Below, in pieces: positions 4,338 through 64,000 of a stretch of DNA of 64,000 bases (the stretch's first letter is position 1; each line of letters starts with the position of its first letter). Both the position numbers and the translations under genes were made by a program. This stretch comes from Paraflavitalea devenefica. Its GTDB lineage: Bacteria > Bacteroidota > Bacteroidia > Chitinophagales > Chitinophagaceae. Where the stretch lies: the NCBI RefSeq assembly GCF_011759375.1, contig NZ_JAARML010000001.1, positions 1,116,001-1,180,000 of the forward strand. Reading direction: 5' to 3'. The notes beneath the pieces were generated by a model that saw nothing but the letters and a program-made list of their open reading frames with translations, was not told the DNA's origin and made no database searches.

Positions 4338-4910
4338 TCAGAAGCGGATGACCTTTTTCAGGTTCACATTGATGGCTTTGCCAATTTTCTGGAGGGCTAT
4401 GGCGAGTTGGTTATCAATGGTTTTGACAGAAATGCCGAGGATTTCGGCCACTTCCTTGTACCGGAGGCCGTCTTCCTTGATGAGTTTAAACACCAGTTTA
4501 CAGCGGGGGGGCAGGTGGCTGATGGCCTGTTCCACGCGGGCCATCATTTCGGCGGTCATCATGAGCTGTTCGGGATTGTTGTACTGGCTTTCGAGCTCTA
4601 CATGGAGCTCGTCAATGGTGATGGCTACCTGTTTTTGCTGTTTAAGCAGGTATTTGAGGGCTGCATTTTTGGTGCTTATATAGAGGTATACTTTCAGGTT
4701 ATTGATCTCTTCGAGGGTGGCCCGCCGCTGCCAGATGCTGATAAAGACGTCGGAGACGATTTCCTCGGCCATTTCATTGGAATGGCAAAAGGTATTGGCA
4801 AACCGGAGCAGGGGTTTATAAAACAGGCAGAACAGCTCTTTATAAGCAGCTTCGTCGTCGTAGAGGGCTATACGACGCTGGATTTCCCTGATGTATGCAA
4901 GCTTAGACAT
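4338..4910 (-). CDS. RNA polymerase ECF-type sigma-70 factor
   Basis: 190 residues, the usual ECF length. Region 2 lies at about residues 25-65 (FCLFYKPLLRFANTFCH, EEIVSDVFISIWQRR). Region 4 lies at about 125-180 with a helix-turn-helix (LPPRCKLVFKLIKEDGLRYK, EVAEILGISVKTIDNQLAIA). It belongs to the Bacteroidota family-1 group of ECF sigma factors that pair with FecR and SusC. It is first in the minus-strand triad with FecR and the SusC receptor, so it probably transcribes that receptor locus when the receptor signals. The next gene upstream is divergent (tRNA at 5089). Confidence 0.95.
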   Translation of the reverse strand: MSKLAYIREIQRRIALYDDEAAYKELFCLFYKPLLRFANTFCHSNEMAEEIVSDVFISIWQRRATLEEINNLKVYLYISTKNAALKYLLKQQKQVAITIDELHVELESQYNNPEQLMMTAEMMARVEQAISHLPPRCKLVFKLIKEDGLRYKEVAEILGISVKTIDNQLAIALQKIGKAINVNLKKVIRF

Positions 4911-5012
4911 AGCAACCGCTATTTAAAGACTACCTGTTTCGCAGTATCGCTGCCTACACAAGGTAAATCAAAAAATAAAGCAGATTTCTTCCCCATAGTT
5001 ACTGAATTTCTC

Positions 5013-5020
5013 TAATTTTG
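5013..5020 (+). promoter_or_regulatory. Candidate -7 element for the tRNA(CAU)
   Basis: TAATTTTG matches the Bacteroidota -7 consensus TAnnTTTG. It lies about 69 nt before the tRNA, comparable to the arrangement before tRNA-Asn further right. No clear -33 TTTG was seen, so this is only a candidate. Confidence 0.35.
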
Positions 5021-5088
5021 CCACTCGCCGGAAATACCGGTTATTGCAGGATAGTTCTTTTATTCATAATATTTGCCTCGTAAGAGGA

Positions 5089-5162
5089 GGGCCCTTAGCT
5101 CAGTCGGTTAGAGCACCTGACTCATAATCAGGGGGTCGTTGGTTCGATACCAACAGGGCCCA
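5089..5162 (+). tRNA. tRNA with CAU anticodon (Met elongator or Ile2)
   Basis: A full cloverleaf can be drawn. Acceptor GGGCCCT pairs with AGGGCCC (discriminator A at 5162), the D arm contains TAGCTCAGTCGGTTAGAGCA, the anticodon stem is CCTGA/TCAGG around a CTCATAA loop, and the T arm is TTGGTTCGATACCAA. The anticodon is CAU. The acceptor and the ACTCATAATC stretch resemble tRNA-Ile2, whose C34 is changed to lysidine by TilS, but an elongator Met tRNA cannot be excluded from sequence alone. CCA is not encoded. Confidence 0.93.
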
Positions 5163-5174
5163 CACTGCTACAAA

Positions 5175-5203
5175 GCCCATGGCATATGCTATGGGCATTT
5201 TTT
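5175..5203 (+). terminator. Rho-independent terminator after tRNA(CAU)
   Basis: GCCCAT at 5175-5180 pairs with ATGGGC at 5191-5196, the central part pairs further, and a run of T follows. It starts 12 nt after the tRNA end. Confidence 0.8.
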
Positions 5204-5214
5204 TAACCTTAACC

Positions 5215-5243
5215 TTTCATTAACCACTGGTAGGATACATTTG
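5215..5243 (+). promoter_or_regulatory. Promoter of the outer-membrane barrel gene
   Basis: The -7 box TACATTTG at 5236-5243 matches TAnnTTTG. A TTTC at 5215-5218 sits 17 nt upstream in the -33 position. The gene starts at 5264. Confidence 0.5.
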
Positions 5244-5263
5244 ACCAATTATTTATTCTCGGT

Positions 5264-6016
5264 ATGAAAAAAATCCTGACGCTTTTTATTGCCCTGGCCT
5301 CTATGACTGCTGTTATGGCCCAGGACTCCACAACTACTGCCGCGCCCGCCAAAAAGAAGAAAAGGGACTGGAGTAAAGTGAGCCTTTCCAACCGGCCAAA
5401 CGACCATTTTATGCTGCAGTTGGGATACAATGGCTGGTCACAAATACCAGATACGATCAATACAAAAGGTCTTTCCCGCAGCTTCAACATGTATTTCATG
5501 TTCGACCTGCCCTTTAAGACCGATCCCCGCTTCAGCGTAGGTATTGGCGCTGGTATAGGCTCTGACAATATGTATTTGGACAAGATGGAGATTGATATTA
5601 CCGGCCGAAGGGCCAATGAGCTTGGCTTCAGGGACATGTCGGATACCAACCATTTTAAGAAGTATAAACTGAACACGACTTTCCTGGAAGCACCGGTTGA
5701 GCTGCGTTTTGTTGCCAATCCTGAAAATTCGAACAGAAGCTGGAAGATTGCCATTGGCGGTAAGGTGGGCACACTGCTGAGCGCTCATGTGAAAGGGAAG
5801 ACTTTACAGAGCAGCAGCGGCAATACCATCAACGCTTATACGATGAAAGAGAAATCCAAGCGCTATTTCAACGGTACCCGCCTGAGTGTTACCGGCCGGA
5901 TAGGCTATGGCGCCCTGGGCCTCTATGGCAGCTACCAGGTGAATGCCTTTGTAAAAGAGGGTTATGGCCCCGATGTTCGGCCTTTCCAGATTGGCCTGAC
6001 CTTGAGCGGATTGTAA
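5264..6016 (+). CDS. Outer-membrane beta-barrel protein
   Basis: 250 residues. A cleavable signal peptide (MKKILTLFIALASMTAVMAQ) is followed by a Lys-rich linker (PAKKKKRDW) and then alternating hydrophobic/polar strands rich in glycine and aromatics, such as HFMLQLGYNGW, FSVGIGAGIG, ALGLYGSYQVNAF and PFQIGLTLSGL at the very end. This is the pattern of the small Bacteroidota porin-like barrel family (OMP_b-brl type). It is probably an outer-membrane protein of unknown function. It is a single gene with its own promoter and terminator. Confidence 0.85.
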   Translation: MKKILTLFIALASMTAVMAQDSTTTAAPAKKKKRDWSKVSLSNRPNDHFMLQLGYNGWSQIPDTINTKGLSRSFNMYFMFDLPFKTDPRFSVGIGAGIGSDNMYLDKMEIDITGRRANELGFRDMSDTNHFKKYKLNTTFLEAPVELRFVANPENSNRSWKIAIGGKVGTLLSAHVKGKTLQSSSGNTINAYTMKEKSKRYFNGTRLSVTGRIGYGALGLYGSYQVNAFVKEGYGPDVRPFQIGLTLSGL

Positions 6017-57333: not shown

Positions 57334-58215
57334 ATGAAACTTCAATTTTCTGGGCACGAATCGTTTATTTGCAAACACTTTTGGCTTAAAAAGGGGTATG
57401 ATTTTGTCATTGGGAAAGGAAATTTTAATGCCGAATCTGCTGTTATTGAATTAGGCGTTGGTAAGAACATGGTAACCTCTATTTCTTATTGGTTAAAATC
57501 ATTTGGAATAGTGGATCATCAATCCCAAGTTACCCAATTGGGAGATTTTCTTTTTCATGACAAACAGGGCGTAGATCCATATATCGAAAGTTTAGCCACT
57601 ATTTGGCTATTACATTACTCATTACTAAAAACCAGTAAAGCTTCAATTTATACTCTTTTTTTTAATGAATTCCGTAAGGGCAGGGTGGATTTTACCAAAG
57701 AACAATTCCTAAACTTCATCAAAAGAAGAATGGAAGATGATGAACAGAGTTTTAATGAAAAAACGGTGGGATCGGATCTCAGTGTCTTTATCCGAAATTA
57801 TTTAAACCCTACGTATAAAGACACCAAAATTGACATCGAAGAAGATTTCTCAGGGCTGCTTATTGACTTAGATTTAATACGCTCATTTAAATCAGAAAAT
57901 GCTGAAGGTAGAATAGTAGATTGGTTTCAAATTGAGAATAAGTTACAGATTGACTTACCTTCAGAAATAGTGCTGTTTGCAATATTGGACAATGAAATGT
58001 ATGGAAAATCTATTCCTTTTAAAGAACTGCTAGTAGGTGATAATTCCCCAGGAGTTGTATTTGCATTAAGTGAAGAAGGCTTATTCAATAAAATAGAGAC
58101 GATCGTTAAGGATTATAAGGGTATAGTTTATACTGAAACAGCAGGAATAAGGGAACTCCAAATTAAAAGAACACTAAATAAGTGGGAAATACTGCATGGC
58201 TACTTCAAAAATTAA
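57334..58215 (+). CDS. sspB: DUF4007 protein, SspB-like
   Basis: 293 residues. The DUF4007 signature is clear at the N-terminus: MKLQFSGHESFICKHFWLKK (F-x-GHE-x-F) and ELGVGKNMVTSISYWLKSFG. The rest is helical with a C-terminal part that looks like a winged helix. In the phosphorothioation system SspABCD the second protein is a DNA-nicking nuclease that I recall as DUF4007; the assignment here is by domain and order, not by a search. The end overlaps the next gene by 20 nt. Together with the ATPase and PP-loop genes it makes an Ssp-like module. Confidence 0.75.
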   Translation: MKLQFSGHESFICKHFWLKKGYDFVIGKGNFNAESAVIELGVGKNMVTSISYWLKSFGIVDHQSQVTQLGDFLFHDKQGVDPYIESLATIWLLHYSLLKTSKASIYTLFFNEFRKGRVDFTKEQFLNFIKRRMEDDEQSFNEKTVGSDLSVFIRNYLNPTYKDTKIDIEEDFSGLLIDLDLIRSFKSENAEGRIVDWFQIENKLQIDLPSEIVLFAILDNEMYGKSIPFKELLVGDNSPGVVFALSEEGLFNKIETIVKDYKGIVYTETAGIRELQIKRTLNKWEILHGYFKN

Positions 58216-61200
58216 ATTTTCACCTTCCGTTAATATCATTCGAGACAGTAATTATTTAATTAATTACATTCCAACACCTAATGCCGTCCAATCATTCAAC
58301 ACTATCCTAAACAATGCAATAACAGGGATTAAGTCGCACGTCTTGATTGGTTCATTTGGAACAGGAAAGTCATCATTTTTACTGGCATTTAAACAAACGT
58401 TAGAAGGGAATAAGGTCCATTTTAAAGGATTCGATAAGTTAATAAAGCAAGTCCCTAAGTATGAATTCTTTCCCGTAATAGGAGAGTTTTTATCCCTTGA
58501 ATCCTATTTCGCCAAAGAATTTAATTTAGGAAAAGGGTATACCGCCAATGACGTTATTAAAGCATTAGACAAGCACTTTAAATCTATTAAGAAGAAAGGT
58601 AAAGGATTGGCGATTATAGTGGATGAATTTGGCAAGTTCTTAGAATTTGCAGCTAAAAACAACCCTGAATCCGAGTTATACTTTATTCAGCTTTTGGCTG
58701 AATGGGTCAATGATAGTGATAATGATACCCTACTAATAACAACCCTACACCAAGATTTTAGCGCTTACGCATTACACTTAAATAAATTACAAAGACAGGA
58801 ATGGGATAAGGTGAAAGGTCGTTTGAAAGATGTTGCTTTCAACGAACCTGTAGAGCAATTACTTTATTTAGCTTCAGAGCGCATCAATGAAAAATTTCCA
58901 TCAAAATCATTTGACAAGAATTTTGATAAACTTTTTGACTGCATAAAAGAAGCAAAAGCTTTTCCTTTAAAGGATTACCTGGAAAAGGAATTTGCACAAA
59001 AGTTATACCCATTTGATATACTCTCAGCCGCCGTATTGACTCTCGCTTTACAAAAATATGGACAAAATGAAAGAAGCCTATTTTCTTTTATTGAATCTAA
59101 CGATCATTTAGGGATCAATGAGTTTAGTTCAAAAAATAAAACATACTTCAGCATATCCCAAGTTTATGATTATTTATTAAACGGTTATTACTCCTTTCTG
59201 ACCACAAAATACAATCCGCATTATACACAATGGTCTGCTATTAGAAAGGCGCAAGAACGTTTAGAAGGCCTCTTTACAGATACGCTTTCGCAAAAACAGG
59301 CCGGCGATTTAGTAAAACTCATCGGTTTACTCAATATCTTTTCTCCGGCCTCAGCCAAACTTGAACGCCGGTTTTATTACAATTATGCCAAGCTTGCTAT
59401 GGGCCTAAAAAATCCTGAAGGCCTTTTAAAAGAATTGGAAAGCAAAAAAATCGTCAGATATGTGAATCATAGCCTTAGGTATATTTTATTTGAGGGTACG
59501 GATCTTGATATTGAATTGGCAATAGATGATGCAGGAAGATTGATAGAGAAATTGACTAATGTGGTTGATCATCTCAACCAATATTTTGAGTTTCCCTTTA
59601 TAGCTGCTAAATCAGTTTATTATGAAATAGGAACTCCTCGCTTCTTTCAATTCAAATTGACAGATGAGCCTATTAAATTAATTCCTGAAGGGGAGGTTGA
59701 CGGATTCATAAATCTTCTTTTTTCAGAGGATTCGAAAATTATCAAAAAAATAGAAGACATTTCATCCAAGTGTGAAGAAGCTATTTTATATGGCTATTAT
59801 AAAAATACTGCTGACATTAAAACTATATTATTTGAGATTCAGAAAATAAAAAAAGTTATTGAAAACAATCAAGATGACAGAACTGCCATAAAACTTTTAA
59901 ATGAAGAATTGTCGATTAAAATTAAGCTACTTAATCATTATGTCTTTGACAATCTATATACAGATAAAGGCACCATCACTTGGTTTTTTAAAGGAAAGAA
60001 AATCAAGTTAAATAGCCGACAACATTTTAATCAGCAGCTTTCGAAGATTTGTGAAGAGATATACCCATATACACCTATTTATAAGAATGAGTTAATCAAT
60101 AAAACGAAAATATCCGGGCAGATAGCTACAGCGAGAAAAAGATTAATTGAAAAGCTTTTATCTCAAGTACAAGAAGAAAATCTAGGATTTAAAGAATCTG
60201 AATTCCCACCAGAGAAGTCTATCTATTTGACACTTTTACGAAGTACTGGAATACATCAAGCTCTCGAAGGAGTTGGTGTTTTGGAAAAACCAATAGACTC
60301 GTCATTTACAGAACTCTGGGACGCTTGTGCTCAATTTATGCTAAGTACGAAAGGGAAGGAAAGAAATCTTGAAGAACTTATTTCCCTCTTATCTAAACGC
60401 CCTTTTAAGTTAAAACAAGGTTTCATAGATTATTGGGTTCCGGTCTTTCTTTTAGTTAACAATGATGAATATGCTTTGTTTGAAAGCGGCAGCTATATAC
60501 CTGAACTTACTTCAGATATTTTAGAATTAATCAACAAGCGTCCTAGTTTCTTTCAATTAAAGGCTTTTGATGTTGCTGGTGTTAAACTACAATTGTTTAA
60601 TAGATACCGCGTGTTGCTAAATCAAGTGGAACATCAAAAACCTACCAACAAAACTTTTATTCAGACTATTAAGCCTTTCTTAATCTTTTATAAGGATTTA
60701 CCTGAATATTCAAAGAAAACTAACAGATTAGATAAAAAAACGATTGCATTAAGGCAGGTAATAGCTAGTGCGAAAGATCCAGAAAAGGCATTTTTTAATG
60801 ACTTCCCTACTGCCCTAGGGTATAGCCTACAAGAATTACAGAAGTCCCCAATACAGGCTGAAGCTTTTATTAAAGATATGCAAGAGGCTATTCGTGAGCT
60901 TAGAACCTCGTTCGATGCAGTGGTAGACAGATTTGAAAACTATTTGACAAAGGAGTTAATAGGCAGCAGTTCACCCTTTCCCGATTATAAACAGGATATA
61001 AAAGCAAGATTCAAAAAGCTAAAAGCGCATTTATTGCTTAATCACCAAAAGTCGTTTTATACACGCGTACAATCCACTTTAGATGATAGGAAAGCGTGGT
61101 TAAATTCTATTGCACAGAGTTGCATTGGTAAACCATTGACATCGATAACTGATGAGGAAGAGAAATTATTATATGATAAATTAAAAGATCTGGTATATGA

Positions 61201-61441
61201 ACTGGATAACCTTTGTGAAATAAGCCAAGCAGACATTAATGAGGATAATGAAGAGGTATTAAAACTTGAAGTCACAAGCTTTGTGCAAGGGCTAAACAAA
61301 AATCTTATCCGGATTCCGAAAACAAAAACAAAAGAGGTTGATAATAAGGTAACCGAAATAAAGGGAATTTTAGGAGCGGATAAAAAGATTAATGTAACCA
61401 TATTAGCTAAACTATTACAGGAGTTGCTGAACCATGAATAA
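58196..61441 (+). CDS. sspC: Large P-loop ATPase, SspC-like
   Basis: 1081 residues. Walker A is GSFGTGKS at 52-59 and Walker B is GLAIIVDEFGKFLE, D143-E144, with a sensor-like TTLHQDFSAYA after it, so the N-terminal 250 residues form an AAA/STAND-like NTPase domain. A long helical region follows and ends in coiled-coil sequence. In Ssp modules the large ATPase powers the modification complex. Translation is coupled at both ends by overlaps of 20 nt and 8 nt. Base use is AT-rich, unlike the core genes to the left. Confidence 0.72.
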   Translation: MATSKIKFSPSVNIIRDSNYLINYIPTPNAVQSFNTILNNAITGIKSHVLIGSFGTGKSSFLLAFKQTLEGNKVHFKGFDKLIKQVPKYEFFPVIGEFLSLESYFAKEFNLGKGYTANDVIKALDKHFKSIKKKGKGLAIIVDEFGKFLEFAAKNNPESELYFIQLLAEWVNDSDNDTLLITTLHQDFSAYALHLNKLQRQEWDKVKGRLKDVAFNEPVEQLLYLASERINEKFPSKSFDKNFDKLFDCIKEAKAFPLKDYLEKEFAQKLYPFDILSAAVLTLALQKYGQNERSLFSFIESNDHLGINEFSSKNKTYFSISQVYDYLLNGYYSFLTTKYNPHYTQWSAIRKAQERLEGLFTDTLSQKQAGDLVKLIGLLNIFSPASAKLERRFYYNYAKLAMGLKNPEGLLKELESKKIVRYVNHSLRYILFEGTDLDIELAIDDAGRLIEKLTNVVDHLNQYFEFPFIAAKSVYYEIGTPRFFQFKLTDEPIKLIPEGEVDGFINLLFSEDSKIIKKIEDISSKCEEAILYGYYKNTADIKTILFEIQKIKKVIENNQDDRTAIKLLNEELSIKIKLLNHYVFDNLYTDKGTITWFFKGKKIKLNSRQHFNQQLSKICEEIYPYTPIYKNELINKTKISGQIATARKRLIEKLLSQVQEENLGFKESEFPPEKSIYLTLLRSTGIHQALEGVGVLEKPIDSSFTELWDACAQFMLSTKGKERNLEELISLLSKRPFKLKQGFIDYWVPVFLLVNNDEYALFESGSYIPELTSDILELINKRPSFFQLKAFDVAGVKLQLFNRYRVLLNQVEHQKPTNKTFIQTIKPFLIFYKDLPEYSKKTNRLDKKTIALRQVIASAKDPEKAFFNDFPTALGYSLQELQKSPIQAEAFIKDMQEAIRELRTSFDAVVDRFENYLTKELIGSSSPFPDYKQDIKARFKKLKAHLLLNHQKSFYTRVQSTLDDRKAWLNSIAQSCIGKPLTSITDEEEKLLYDKLKDLVYELDNLCEISQADINEDNEEVLKLEVTSFVQGLNKNLIRIPKTKTKEVDNKVTEIKGILGADKKINVTILAKLLQELLNHE

Positions 61442-62540
61442 GAAGGTTAGACACGTATTAGGGATATCTGGAGGAAAGGATAGCGCTGCGTTAGCTATCT
61501 ATTTACATAATCTTTACCCAGAACTTGATATTGAATATTATTTCTGTGATACTGGGAAAGAATTGGCAGAAACTTATACACTTGTAGATAATTTAGAAAA
61601 TTATTTAGGCAAAACAATTAATAGATTAAAAGCTGCAGCCAAGAGCAGCCAGGAGCCATTTGATCACTTTTACAATTTATTCGGCGGATATCTCCCTTCT
61701 TCTAATGCCCGCTGGTGTACAAAGTATCTCAAATTGGATCCTTTCGAAACTTTTGTTGGCGATGCGCCTGTAGTTTCCTACGTAGGAATAAGAGGAGATG
61801 AAGACAGAGAAGGTTATATTTCCCGAAAGCCGAATATTCAATCCATTTTTCCTTTCAGGAGAAACATATGGAGTGAAGATGTTATAAGCAAAGTAATAAA
61901 GAATGACAATATTGCTACGCTTAGTGAGATATATAGTTTCTACTTCCCAAAAGATAAAATAAGAAGATGTCTTGAAATTATCAACGAACCCCTTTCGCTT
62001 AAATTCAATCAAGAACAGAAACTCGATTTGCTATTAGGCCAAAATATTACATTCTTTAATCAGGCTGTTCATGAGTTTTTAAAGACAACTAATTACCCAT
62101 TAGCCAACACCCCGCATTTTCCCCTTTTAGAGAATGAGGATGTGTTAGTAAGAGATGATATTTTCAGAATCTTACGAGAAAGCGGCGTAGGCGTCCCCAA
62201 TTACTATGAGAAAATAGTTTTTAAGCATAACGGTAAGATTGGTGAATATGCTCGTAGCCGCTCTGGCTGTTATTTTTGTTTTTTTCAACAAAAAATTGAA
62301 TGGGTATGGCTTTACGAGCAACATCCTGAACGATTTAAACTTGCTATGCAATATGAAAATGAAAAGGAGGGGTTTACTTGGAACCAAAATGAAAGCCTAT
62401 CTGACCTAATACAACCGGAAAGAATTGATATCATTAAAGAAGAGTATTTGAACAAACCCAAAACTAAAACTAAGTCTCCTTATTTGCTGGATATTCTGGA
62501 TGATACAGAATCGGAAGGATGCGCAGCATGCTTTATTTAA
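61434..62540 (+). CDS. sspD: PAPS-reductase-like PP-loop enzyme, SspD/DndC-like
   Basis: 368 residues. The PP-loop is ISGGKDSAAL with S12-G-G-K-D-S17, so it should bind ATP and activate an atom for transfer. Cysteine pairs or singles in RWCTKYLKL, SGCYFCFFQ and GCAACF (at the C-terminus) could hold an iron-sulfur cluster, as in DndC. Enzymes of this kind put sulfur into the DNA backbone. It is third in the operon, overlapping the ATPase gene by 8 nt and the opposing DGQHR gene by 8 nt at the 3' end. A cysteine desulfurase partner (SspA/IscS) is not in the window. Confidence 0.8.
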   Translation: MNKKVRHVLGISGGKDSAALAIYLHNLYPELDIEYYFCDTGKELAETYTLVDNLENYLGKTINRLKAAAKSSQEPFDHFYNLFGGYLPSSNARWCTKYLKLDPFETFVGDAPVVSYVGIRGDEDREGYISRKPNIQSIFPFRRNIWSEDVISKVIKNDNIATLSEIYSFYFPKDKIRRCLEIINEPLSLKFNQEQKLDLLLGQNITFFNQAVHEFLKTTNYPLANTPHFPLLENEDVLVRDDIFRILRESGVGVPNYYEKIVFKHNGKIGEYARSRSGCYFCFFQQKIEWVWLYEQHPERFKLAMQYENEKEGFTWNQNESLSDLIQPERIDIIKEEYLNKPKTKTKSPYLLDILDDTESEGCAACFI

Positions 62541-63774
62541 GTAATCGTAAAATTGATCTAACCTTAGAAGGAGAATCAATTGCTAAGCTTGAAGCATATC
62601 CTTCTTTTAACTTTGTTAATTCTTTTTTTGTCAATATGTCATTGTCAAATTGATACAATAAAATCAATTCTGTTAAAGAAGAAGTATTCATAACCATTTT
62701 CTTTTCGATAGGATTCCATAATACGTAAACCCAGGGTCTATTATGAATTTCGAAATTGAATTTATTATATCTTTCAAATATTTTTTTAAACCCAATGTTA
62801 TGCTGATTATTAATTCGTAATGAGGCTTTGATGAAAGGAAGAAATCCTACTGGCCTAAATAATAGATTACCTCCGGTTTCACCGTTTCTAAAATCATCGG
62901 AAAAGTCTTTTTTCTTTCTTAAGTATTCTTTTATTACTGTTAAAGTTTTGAAAGAATCCCAATAACTGATACAATAATTCTTGAATGAGTTATAAACCTC
63001 ATCCGTAGGCCGAAATTTGAGAAGTTCTGCTAACCGCTCTTTTGTGATTTTTGTTCCACTCTTAATAAACATAAAGTTTTTGAAAATTTCAACATTTGCT
63101 TGGTATAGCGTTATAATTGATGTTATAGCATCTTTATTATTATTTGGAATTGCTTTTTGTTTTGCATAAACAACCCGGGTTCCTGTAAATAAATCATATT
63201 CATCTAGCAACTCCCTGGTTACAATCGCTGCCGAATCATCTTCATCCAATGCGATAATGTCATCATCACTTACAGGTTTCGCATACCTGTTTAAAGTAGT
63301 AAACAACCTTCTAGTCTTTTTCTTTCCATGCTCATCATTCTTGTGCCCAATAAAAATAACGCCAACTTGCTCATTTGACAAATCGGGTCTCTCCAATAAG
63401 GCAGCCTTAATCCCTTCCACTCGATGTTGTCCATCTACCGGAAATATCTTATGTGAACCAGGGAACTCCAGAAGGCCCATTTTATAAGTCTCCAATTCAT
63501 CATACTTGAATTCAATTTCTCGCCAATTAGGATAATCATCATAAACGGCAAGAACTAATGAATTAAAAAAAAGTTCCCCTTGCTTGAGGATATACTCCTT
63601 TATACTTAAATAATTGCCAGTTATACTTCTTTGAATCAAATCTCTCAACGTTTCACTTTTATGAAGTTGATCATCAATTTTTGAAACATAGTCATTCACC
63701 TGTTTAAATGTCAGTGTTGTCACATAATAGTCCCATGAACCAATTTTTGCTTTAAGCGCAGGTATTTTCATCAT
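62533..63774 (-). CDS. DGQHR-domain protein, DndB-like
   Basis: 413 residues. The namesake motif D114-G-Q-H-R118 is present in FPVDGQHRVEGIKAAL, with the second conserved block TRRLFTTLNRYAKPVSDDD. The N-terminus (IPALKAKIGSWDYYVTTLTF) also looks like DndB. DndB represses the dnd operon in known systems, so a regulator for the opposing sulfur-modification genes is one role; DNA- or nucleotide-binding in defence is another. It converges with the sspD-like gene and is coupled (4-nt overlap) to the gene running in from the right edge. Confidence 0.82.
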   Translation of the reverse strand: MMKIPALKAKIGSWDYYVTTLTFKQVNDYVSKIDDQLHKSETLRDLIQRSITGNYLSIKEYILKQGELFFNSLVLAVYDDYPNWREIEFKYDELETYKMGLLEFPGSHKIFPVDGQHRVEGIKAALLERPDLSNEQVGVIFIGHKNDEHGKKKTRRLFTTLNRYAKPVSDDDIIALDEDDSAAIVTRELLDEYDLFTGTRVVYAKQKAIPNNNKDAITSIITLYQANVEIFKNFMFIKSGTKITKERLAELLKFRPTDEVYNSFKNYCISYWDSFKTLTVIKEYLRKKKDFSDDFRNGETGGNLLFRPVGFLPFIKASLRINNQHNIGFKKIFERYNKFNFEIHNRPWVYVLWNPIEKKMVMNTSSLTELILLYQFDNDILTKKELTKLKEGYASSLAIDSPSKVRSILRLLK

Positions 63775-64000
63775 TCAAATGCTTTAATTGCTTGTTTAAT
63801 TACTTTATCAGGAATTAAATCATTCATCGGTAAAACTAATGAGTTAATAATATCCCTTTCGATATTTTTTATTTCTTCATTATCATCAAGTGGATAGAAT
63901 GCTAAATATAACTCTTTACCCCAATAATGAATCATTCGATAGATTTTTGGCCTTTCATCATTATTGGAGTACTTCTGAAAATATTCTTTTACTCTTTTCC
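63771..64000 (-). CDS. 3' end of an unidentified gene, coupled to the DGQHR gene (partial)
   Basis: The last 75 codons of a minus-strand gene that begins beyond the right edge. The visible C-terminus includes RPKIYRMIHYWGKELYLAFY, IERDIINSLVLPMNDLIPD and ends AIKAFE. The phrase I-E-R-D-I-I-N-S-L-x-x-P-x-N resembles the closing helix of GIY-YIG nucleases, which would suit a restriction partner, but the catalytic part is out of view, so this is a hint only. Its TGA (63771-63773) overlaps the ATG of the DGQHR gene. Confidence 0.7.
   Translation of the reverse strand, partial: KRVKEYFQKYSNNDERPKIYRMIHYWGKELYLAFYPLDDNEEIKNIERDIINSLVLPMNDLIPDKVIKQAIKAFE

Follow-up and report, generated by a model that had tools for sequence, protein, structure and literature searches.

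In the SspABCD-SspE (PMC9646914) and DndBCDE-DndI (PMC11662687) systems, genes for phosphorothioate (PT) modification of DNA are coupled to a restriction effector in which a nucleoside triphosphatase (NTPase) domain of the ParB/Srx fold, belonging to the DUF262 (DGQQR) group, is fused to an HNH nuclease. The NTPase of SspE and DndI senses PT, hydrolysis changes the conformation of the protein, and the nuclease attacks unmarked DNA and releases self-DNA (PMC9646914, PMC11662687). DUF262 (DGQQR) domains are homologous to DGQHR domains (PMC4619093). In a further system, SspABCD-SspFGH, the restriction arm accompanying sspBCD is separate and consists of several genes (PMC8092258). In a 2021 survey, 2,211 of 2,678 sspBCD loci (~84%) contained neither sspE nor sspFGH, and whether these are orphans or possess hidden restriction partners was left open (PMC8092258).

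One locus of this kind lies at the right end of a 64,000-nucleotide stretch of the Paraflavitalea devenefica genome (contig NZ_JAARML010000001.1, positions 1,116,001 to 1,180,000; hereafter, the window). Here, sspBCD faces an operon that reads, from 5′ to 3′, GHKL ATPase, GIY-YIG nuclease, and DGQHR protein. As in SspE and DndI, PT genes are accompanied by a predicted ParB/Srx-fold NTPase coupled to a nuclease. Unlike SspE and DndI, the DGQHR switch and the GIY-YIG nuclease are encoded by two genes, and a GHKL ATPase is added. With SspFGH the arrangement would share a separate restriction arm of several genes next to sspBCD, but its proteins appear to be unrelated. We consider it probable that the GIY-YIG and DGQHR proteins constitute a portable restriction effector, encoded by two genes, that works with sulfur marking of DNA as a split counterpart of SspE and DndI.

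The GIY-YIG and DGQHR proteins and their partners

A sequence-only reading of the window had described the gene facing sspBCD as a Dnd-type, DndB-like partner mixed with an Ssp-type operon. The shared DGQHR domain is real (Table 1), but the protein is not DndB: it reaches 62 of the 328 bits of the DndB equivalog model TIGR03233, far under the curated cut-off, and a phylogenetic tree places three true DndB proteins apart from the pair-type DGQHR proteins, with SH-like approximate likelihood ratio test (SH-aLRT) values of 94 and 97. Across 20 relatives, the QR, DGQHR, and FxxxN motifs do not vary, and the DGQHR motif is kept in 30 of 30; it is through these three motifs that DGQHR domains have been linked to the DUF262 NTPase domain of GmrSD (PMC4619093). 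The protein is accordingly predicted to be a ParB/Srx-fold NTPase that serves as a reader or switch. It has the PF14072/DGQHR domain in common with DndB but belongs to a separate clade, coexists with DndB, and is always paired with a GIY-YIG protein in the loci seen.

The 175-residue product of the adjoining gene is detected as GIY-YIG by Pfam only as a trace (E 0.046). Fifteen aligned relatives, 20-69% identical to the first sequence, have few invariant residues, and G67, Y69, Y87, G89, R102, Y106, E147, and N159 belong to these; the catalytic Tyr, Tyr, Arg, Glu, and Asn of the GIY-YIG signature are present in the island's own protein. The fold was compared using the predicted structure of a Flavihumibacter homolog (66% identical), which is well modeled over approximately residues 40-150. 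VIA-align matched this model to T4 endonuclease II (EndoII; Z 10.0), the GIY-YIG domain of UvrC (8.3), I-TevI (7.0), and R.Eco29kI (6.6); glutaredoxin at 6.8 aside, clearly unrelated folds begin at 3.6. As judged from the modeled fold and the signature residues, the protein is a GIY-YIG nuclease.

The two genes are inherited together. In 16 of 16 distinct GHKL-linked loci, the GIY-YIG gene lies directly before the DGQHR gene, abutting or overlapping it. Within these loci, evolutionary distances of the two proteins are correlated (Spearman coefficient 0.79), while neither follows the GHKL protein (0.00 for GIY-YIG and 0.05 for DGQHR), so the pair, on these comparisons, travels as one unit independent of the GHKL gene. 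All GHKL-linked GIY-YIG loci adjoin sspBCD save two on contigs of <9 kb. The pair also lies beside sspBCD on alphaproteobacterial plasmids, and in Rhizobium K1/93 its neighbors, again at sspBCD, are three genes of which one is FtsK-like.

The partnership extends independently to Dnd. Three dnd operons carry the pair, and a dndB of their own is present in two. In one Bacteroidota genome, genes for DndC (447 bits) and DndD (397 bits), both over their cut-offs, are followed in order by those for GIY-YIG, DGQHR, and a DndE-HerA fusion. On a plasmid of Rhizobium NXC14, the GIY-YIG (E 2e-33) and DGQHR (E 2e-111) genes adjoin dndBCDE and a desulfurase gene. In an integrative conjugative element of Salmonella Infantis SARB27 (L203:8321-17219), the GIY-YIG (E 8.5e-38) and DGQHR (E 5.7e-93) genes converge on dndBCDE in the same facing layout as in the window; a third convergent gene encodes a 594-residue protein with a DGQQR motif, DndI-like by reading of its sequence only. 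The presence of the same pair beside dnd operons that have their own dndB argues against a regulator role for the DGQHR protein; on these sequence comparisons it is probably half of a portable nuclease module and not a stray Dnd regulator.

Phages carry the pair as well. It occurs as cargo between the portal gene and gpA in P2-like prophages (E. coli JNEC-KY180, L202:6001-7682); among 5,426 E. coli genomes that are complete, two contain most of the query. A PAPS-reductase-like gene is found next to gpA in many P2-like prophages. A phage contig (L193/L195, IMGVR_UViG_3300037424_001491) encodes GIY-YIG (as a short frame), DGQHR, and GHKL proteins beside genes for a Dam-like methylase, an amidase, and a terminase; no ssp genes are within reach on this contig. 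On another phage contig, Firmicutes-like by gene content (L198:9655-12556), a short GIY-YIG protein, a DGQHR protein, and a dGTPase-like protein are encoded behind an amidase gene.

The GHKL ATPase and the cassette beside sspBCD

The N, G1, and G2 boxes of the GHKL protein are intact, and their motif residues are invariant or near-invariant among relatives. The GHKL and transducer module occupies residues 46-465 and matches Hsp90, MORC (MORC3), Topo VI-B, and MutL with Z scores up to 19.7; the C-terminal part (~520-807) is without a family assignment. No PADLOC model matches either the GHKL or the GIY-YIG protein. Relatives of the GHKL protein were searched for in one genome per species, which yielded 80 loci (51-73% identity) in Bacteroidota, Poribacteria, Nitrospirota, Planctomycetota, Gammaproteobacteria, and others. 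Neighborhoods were counted in the 50 loci with complete 10-kb flanks, and at least two ssp genes are present in 49 of them. The exception (L097) retains, besides a desulfurase gene, a GHKL gene whose end is divergent and truncated; this GHKL gene is 96.7% identical to its counterpart at the ssp genes of L085 and is probably the decayed remnant of an ssp-linked copy. GHKL relatives under ~40% identity have no Ssp linkage, and the background frequency of SspB is 26 in 395 Bacteroidota genomes. Because 49 of 50 full-flank relatives adjoin sspBCD, the neighborhood is not due to chance, and the layout, which the sequence-only reading had not known as standard, proves to be a recurrent one.

Other genes recur near the GHKL and ssp genes. 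A 975-residue protein without a family assignment is encoded directly downstream of the GHKL gene in three unrelated loci (L083:12377-15304, L133:12469-15393, and L138:12482-15406), and L169 has a relative of it in the vicinity of a dnd operon. Next to sspD, a recurrent pair encodes a ~210-residue protein without a family assignment and a nucleoside deoxyribosyltransferase-like protein (Pfam E 1e-12; L024:12806-13820, also L064, L082, L093, and L155).

A recurrent cassette separates the GHKL gene from the ssp operon in 56 of 79 ssp-bearing loci, and in 17 it lies elsewhere nearby. The cassette is GIY-YIG and DGQHR in the 16 distinct loci mentioned above, DUF262 and a protein kinase in 13, and DUF262 and SIR2 in five, with one additional locus bearing both DUF262-SIR2 and GIY-YIG-DGQHR. 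Others comprise DUF262 with HEPN or another partner, a second GHKL protein with a GIY-YIG protein that Pfam does recognize, and two- and three-gene sets without assigned function. On the GHKL tree, the GIY-YIG-DGQHR label needs 14 changes (11 of them forced by well-supported branches) versus 14.7 for shuffled labels, and the ten cassette types need 34 changes; the SspC tree agrees with cassette exchange and carries long-branch warnings. The exchange is visible directly in two Aquimarina loci (L152 and L156), which share ~93.6% DNA identity through GHKL and through sspBCD while the 2-kb and 3.7-kb cassettes between these are unrelated. L146, a relative, has GIY-YIG and DGQHR in the same slot.

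We tentatively suggest, with rather less confidence than we place in the two-gene effector itself, that SspBCD and the GHKL ATPase form a general platform whose fixed slot would take alternative effectors: a GIY-YIG nuclease, SIR2, a Ser/Thr kinase, a HEPN RNase, or uncharacterized three-gene sets. If this is true, immune outputs that differ in their chemistry are all under the control of a mark in the DNA backbone, resembling the effector exchange in cyclic oligonucleotide-based antiphage signaling systems (CBASS).

The locus in P. devenefica

The genes are located on an AT-rich island of ~11.5 kb (window ~57,200-68,700) with 30-36% G+C, compared to 45-49% in the flanks, in a host genome of 8.7 Mb. 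The right part of the island lies in the 4.7 kb past the window edge, and this DNA was included to read the facing operon in full (Table 1). Every part described here by the sequence-only reading was confirmed at its stated position. Profile searches matched the four proteins to SspB, SspC, SspD, and DGQHR models. SspB, SspC, and SspD are encoded in that order by a single operon, the gene arrangement by which Ssp DNA phosphorothioation is recognized, with overlaps of 20 nt (SspB/SspC) and 8 nt (SspC/SspD). SspB additionally matches the solved SspB structure 6juf (E 5e-14), SspC contains Walker A (GSFGTGKSS) and Walker B (IIVDE) motifs, and SspD scores below the DndC cut-off. The convergent sspD and DGQHR genes overlap by 8 bp, and the DGQHR gene is indeed coupled to another gene, overlapping the GIY-YIG gene by 4 nt; a 2-nt gap separates the latter from the GHKL gene.

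Table 1. Genes of the AT-rich island, in window coordinates unless indicated.
Feature	Position	Strand	Evidence and remarks
sspB, DUF4007, 293 aa	57334..58215	+	First gene in modification operon; PF13182 241 bits; PADLOC SspB 356 bits, E 3.4e-107
sspC, large P-loop ATPase, 1081 aa	58196..61441	+	PADLOC SspC 1352 bits over 1042 residues, E 0
sspD, PAPS-reductase-like PP-loop sulfurtransferase, 368 aa	61434..62540	+	PADLOC SspD 308 bits, E 2e-92; PF01507
DGQHR gene, 413 aa	62533..63774	-	PF14072 (DndB) 103 bits; TIGR03187 (DGQHR domain) 98 bits, cut-off 58.85
GIY-YIG nuclease gene, 175 aa	63771..64000 in window; full gene to 64298 (genome C1:1179771-1180298)	-	Signature residues, fold
GHKL ATPase gene, 807 aa	64301-66724 on window scale (C1:1180301-1182724), outside window		Same operon as GIY-YIG, upstream; motifs, fold
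C5 cytosine methylase and HNH protein	L003:3966-4853 and 4882-5658 (66965-68657 on window scale), outside window		Island right end

The absence of SspA and SspE also stands. No cysteine desulfurase is encoded within the locus; IscS-like desulfurase genes are located elsewhere in the genome (C1:571029 and C2:435723), and IscS is able to serve as the desulfurase for Ssp (PMC8092258). Neither a DUF262 (DGQQR) domain nor a DUF1524 HNH domain of an SspE-type effector was found in the locus, and the sole DUF262 gene of the genome is unlinked to it. Extension to the right, where SspE or SspFGH had been suggested as possible finds, supplied the GIY-YIG and GHKL genes as candidate effector parts but no SspE and, by inspection of open reading frames and domains in the island (no SspFGH profile search was made), no FtsK-like (SspH) frame. 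At the sequence level, the gene content supports the earlier proposal of Ssp-type DNA sulfur modification on a defense island.

The HNH protein encoded at the island's right end gives a weak, sub-threshold match (64 of 180 bits) to NF045808, the NCBI model for a PT-DNA-binding restriction endonuclease, and also a weak match to the solved HNH endonuclease 6yex; a PT-dependent enzyme of the McrA type is one candidate reading of it, neither adopted nor dismissed. Together with the C5 methylase it is probably a separate type II restriction-modification (R-M) pair. Relatives of the HNH protein are encoded directly upstream of the GHKL gene in L024/L155 and L127 as well. No tRNA gene was found in two 20-kb stretches around the island, where tRNA-linked insertion was looked for. 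The right-border gene encodes a 252-residue protein (L003:6249-7004) of a large paralogous family, with 29 matches in its own genome and 13-20 in congeners, and the left- and right-flank genes, sought in 20 relatives, are non-adjacent in the nearest genome; for these reasons, no empty site could be shown.

Proposed mechanism and alternative explanations

In the proposed mechanism, SspBCD would place PT on the host's DNA, with a housekeeping cysteine desulfurase standing in for SspA, and the operon facing sspBCD would be the attack arm. By analogy with SspE and DndI, the DGQHR protein would sense the PT mark and act as the switch that gates the nuclease, and the GIY-YIG protein would nick or cut unmarked phage or plasmid DNA. 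For the GHKL protein, the prediction is a dimeric clamp gated by ATP, as in MutL, MORC, and Hsp90; as the constant partner in this Ssp branch, it would probably license or load whichever effector sits in the neighboring slot. This role is in line with the DNA looping proposed for the MORC and paraMORC proteins of R-M operons (PMC2292703), which likewise combine a GHKL and transducer ATPase with R-M-like neighborhoods; those operons contain an SF2 helicase and a methylase, and the available text of that report does not mention Ssp or DndB.

Several observations weigh against this proposal. Foldseek returned no significant match for the GIY-YIG model and would be insufficient alone, the fold assignment being drawn from VIA-align and the signature residues. 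The pair stands beside ssp genes without this GHKL protein in L071, L019, and L020, and the GHKL protein is consequently not obligatory for it. Copies in two P2-like prophages, a further phage contig, and the Firmicutes-like contig have no SspBC or Dnd genes nearby. Because of these phage-borne cases, the pair may act without PT, or via the marks of its host.

An abortive-infection effector is an alternative that we regard as unlikely. The GHKL protein would sense an attack on the machinery that marks DNA with sulfur, or a different phage trigger, and the GIY-YIG nuclease would then damage the cell's own DNA. Alternation with SIR2, kinase, and HEPN in the slot is typical of suicidal systems, the GHKL protein is constant, and backup nucleases have been proposed for Dnd loci (PMC10853773). 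However, the pair is found with Dnd and also in the three loci without this GHKL protein, and its combination of a ParB/Srx protein with a nuclease matches SspE and DndI, which read PT and spare self.

It is improbable that the DGQHR protein is a DndB-type regulator, repressing sspBCD or limiting sulfur incorporation, with the nuclease incidental. DndB is a published regulator with which it has a domain in common (PMC4507180; PF14072 match), and the DGQHR gene faces sspBCD. A role as a DndB-like transcriptional regulator was nevertheless rejected as the leading explanation, given the sub-cut-off equivalog score, the separate clade, and the dnd operons in which the pair coexists with dndB; co-evolution of the DGQHR protein with the nuclease and replacement of the cassette by effector enzymes in relatives also argue against it.

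Lower still is the probability that the pair aids modification, for instance by nicking DNA for sulfur insertion, and takes no part in restriction. Insertion of sulfur into a single strand could plausibly involve a nick, and PT linkage of the pair holds for Ssp and Dnd alike, but most sspBCD loci do without it (3 of 26 sspB-bearing Bacteroidota genomes have it) and, since unrelated, toxin-like enzymes alternate in the same slot, an effector role is favored over that of a modification helper. A chance neighborhood of separate systems in a defense island, as the nearby C5 methylase and HNH genes of type II R-M kind might suggest, is scarcely credible beside the 49 of 50 complete loci from several phyla and the recurrence of the pair next to Ssp and Dnd in unrelated genomes.

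The two-gene effector proposed here would add a variant to PT-based restriction, which is itself already known. GIY-YIG (URI) nucleases have been described near Dnd cores (PMC10853773), and the likeness is the proximity of GIY-YIG to PT genes; the accessible portion of that survey presents them as boundary, stand-alone backups and does not describe pairing with DGQHR or Ssp. As far as their available text extends, surveys from 2024 and 2026 (PMC10853773, PMC12839542) mention GIY-YIG (URI) at Dnd borders and DUF4007/SspB, but neither the GIY-YIG-DGQHR pair nor a GHKL-Ssp link. SspBCD together with GHKL was not found in the literature searched; subscription papers, preprints, and supplementary tables were outside the search, and an earlier mention is possible.

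The GHKL gene and its cassettes, GIY-YIG and DGQHR among them, are concrete candidate partners for a share of the sspBCD loci that have neither sspE nor sspFGH, in several phyla. One effector appears to serve two sulfur-marking machineries, Ssp and Dnd, which would inform what the reader recognizes, and the near-identical Aquimarina loci with different cassettes amount to a natural effector-swap experiment. Many sulfur-marking systems lack a known attack partner, and the nuclease with its companion switch may supply one of these.

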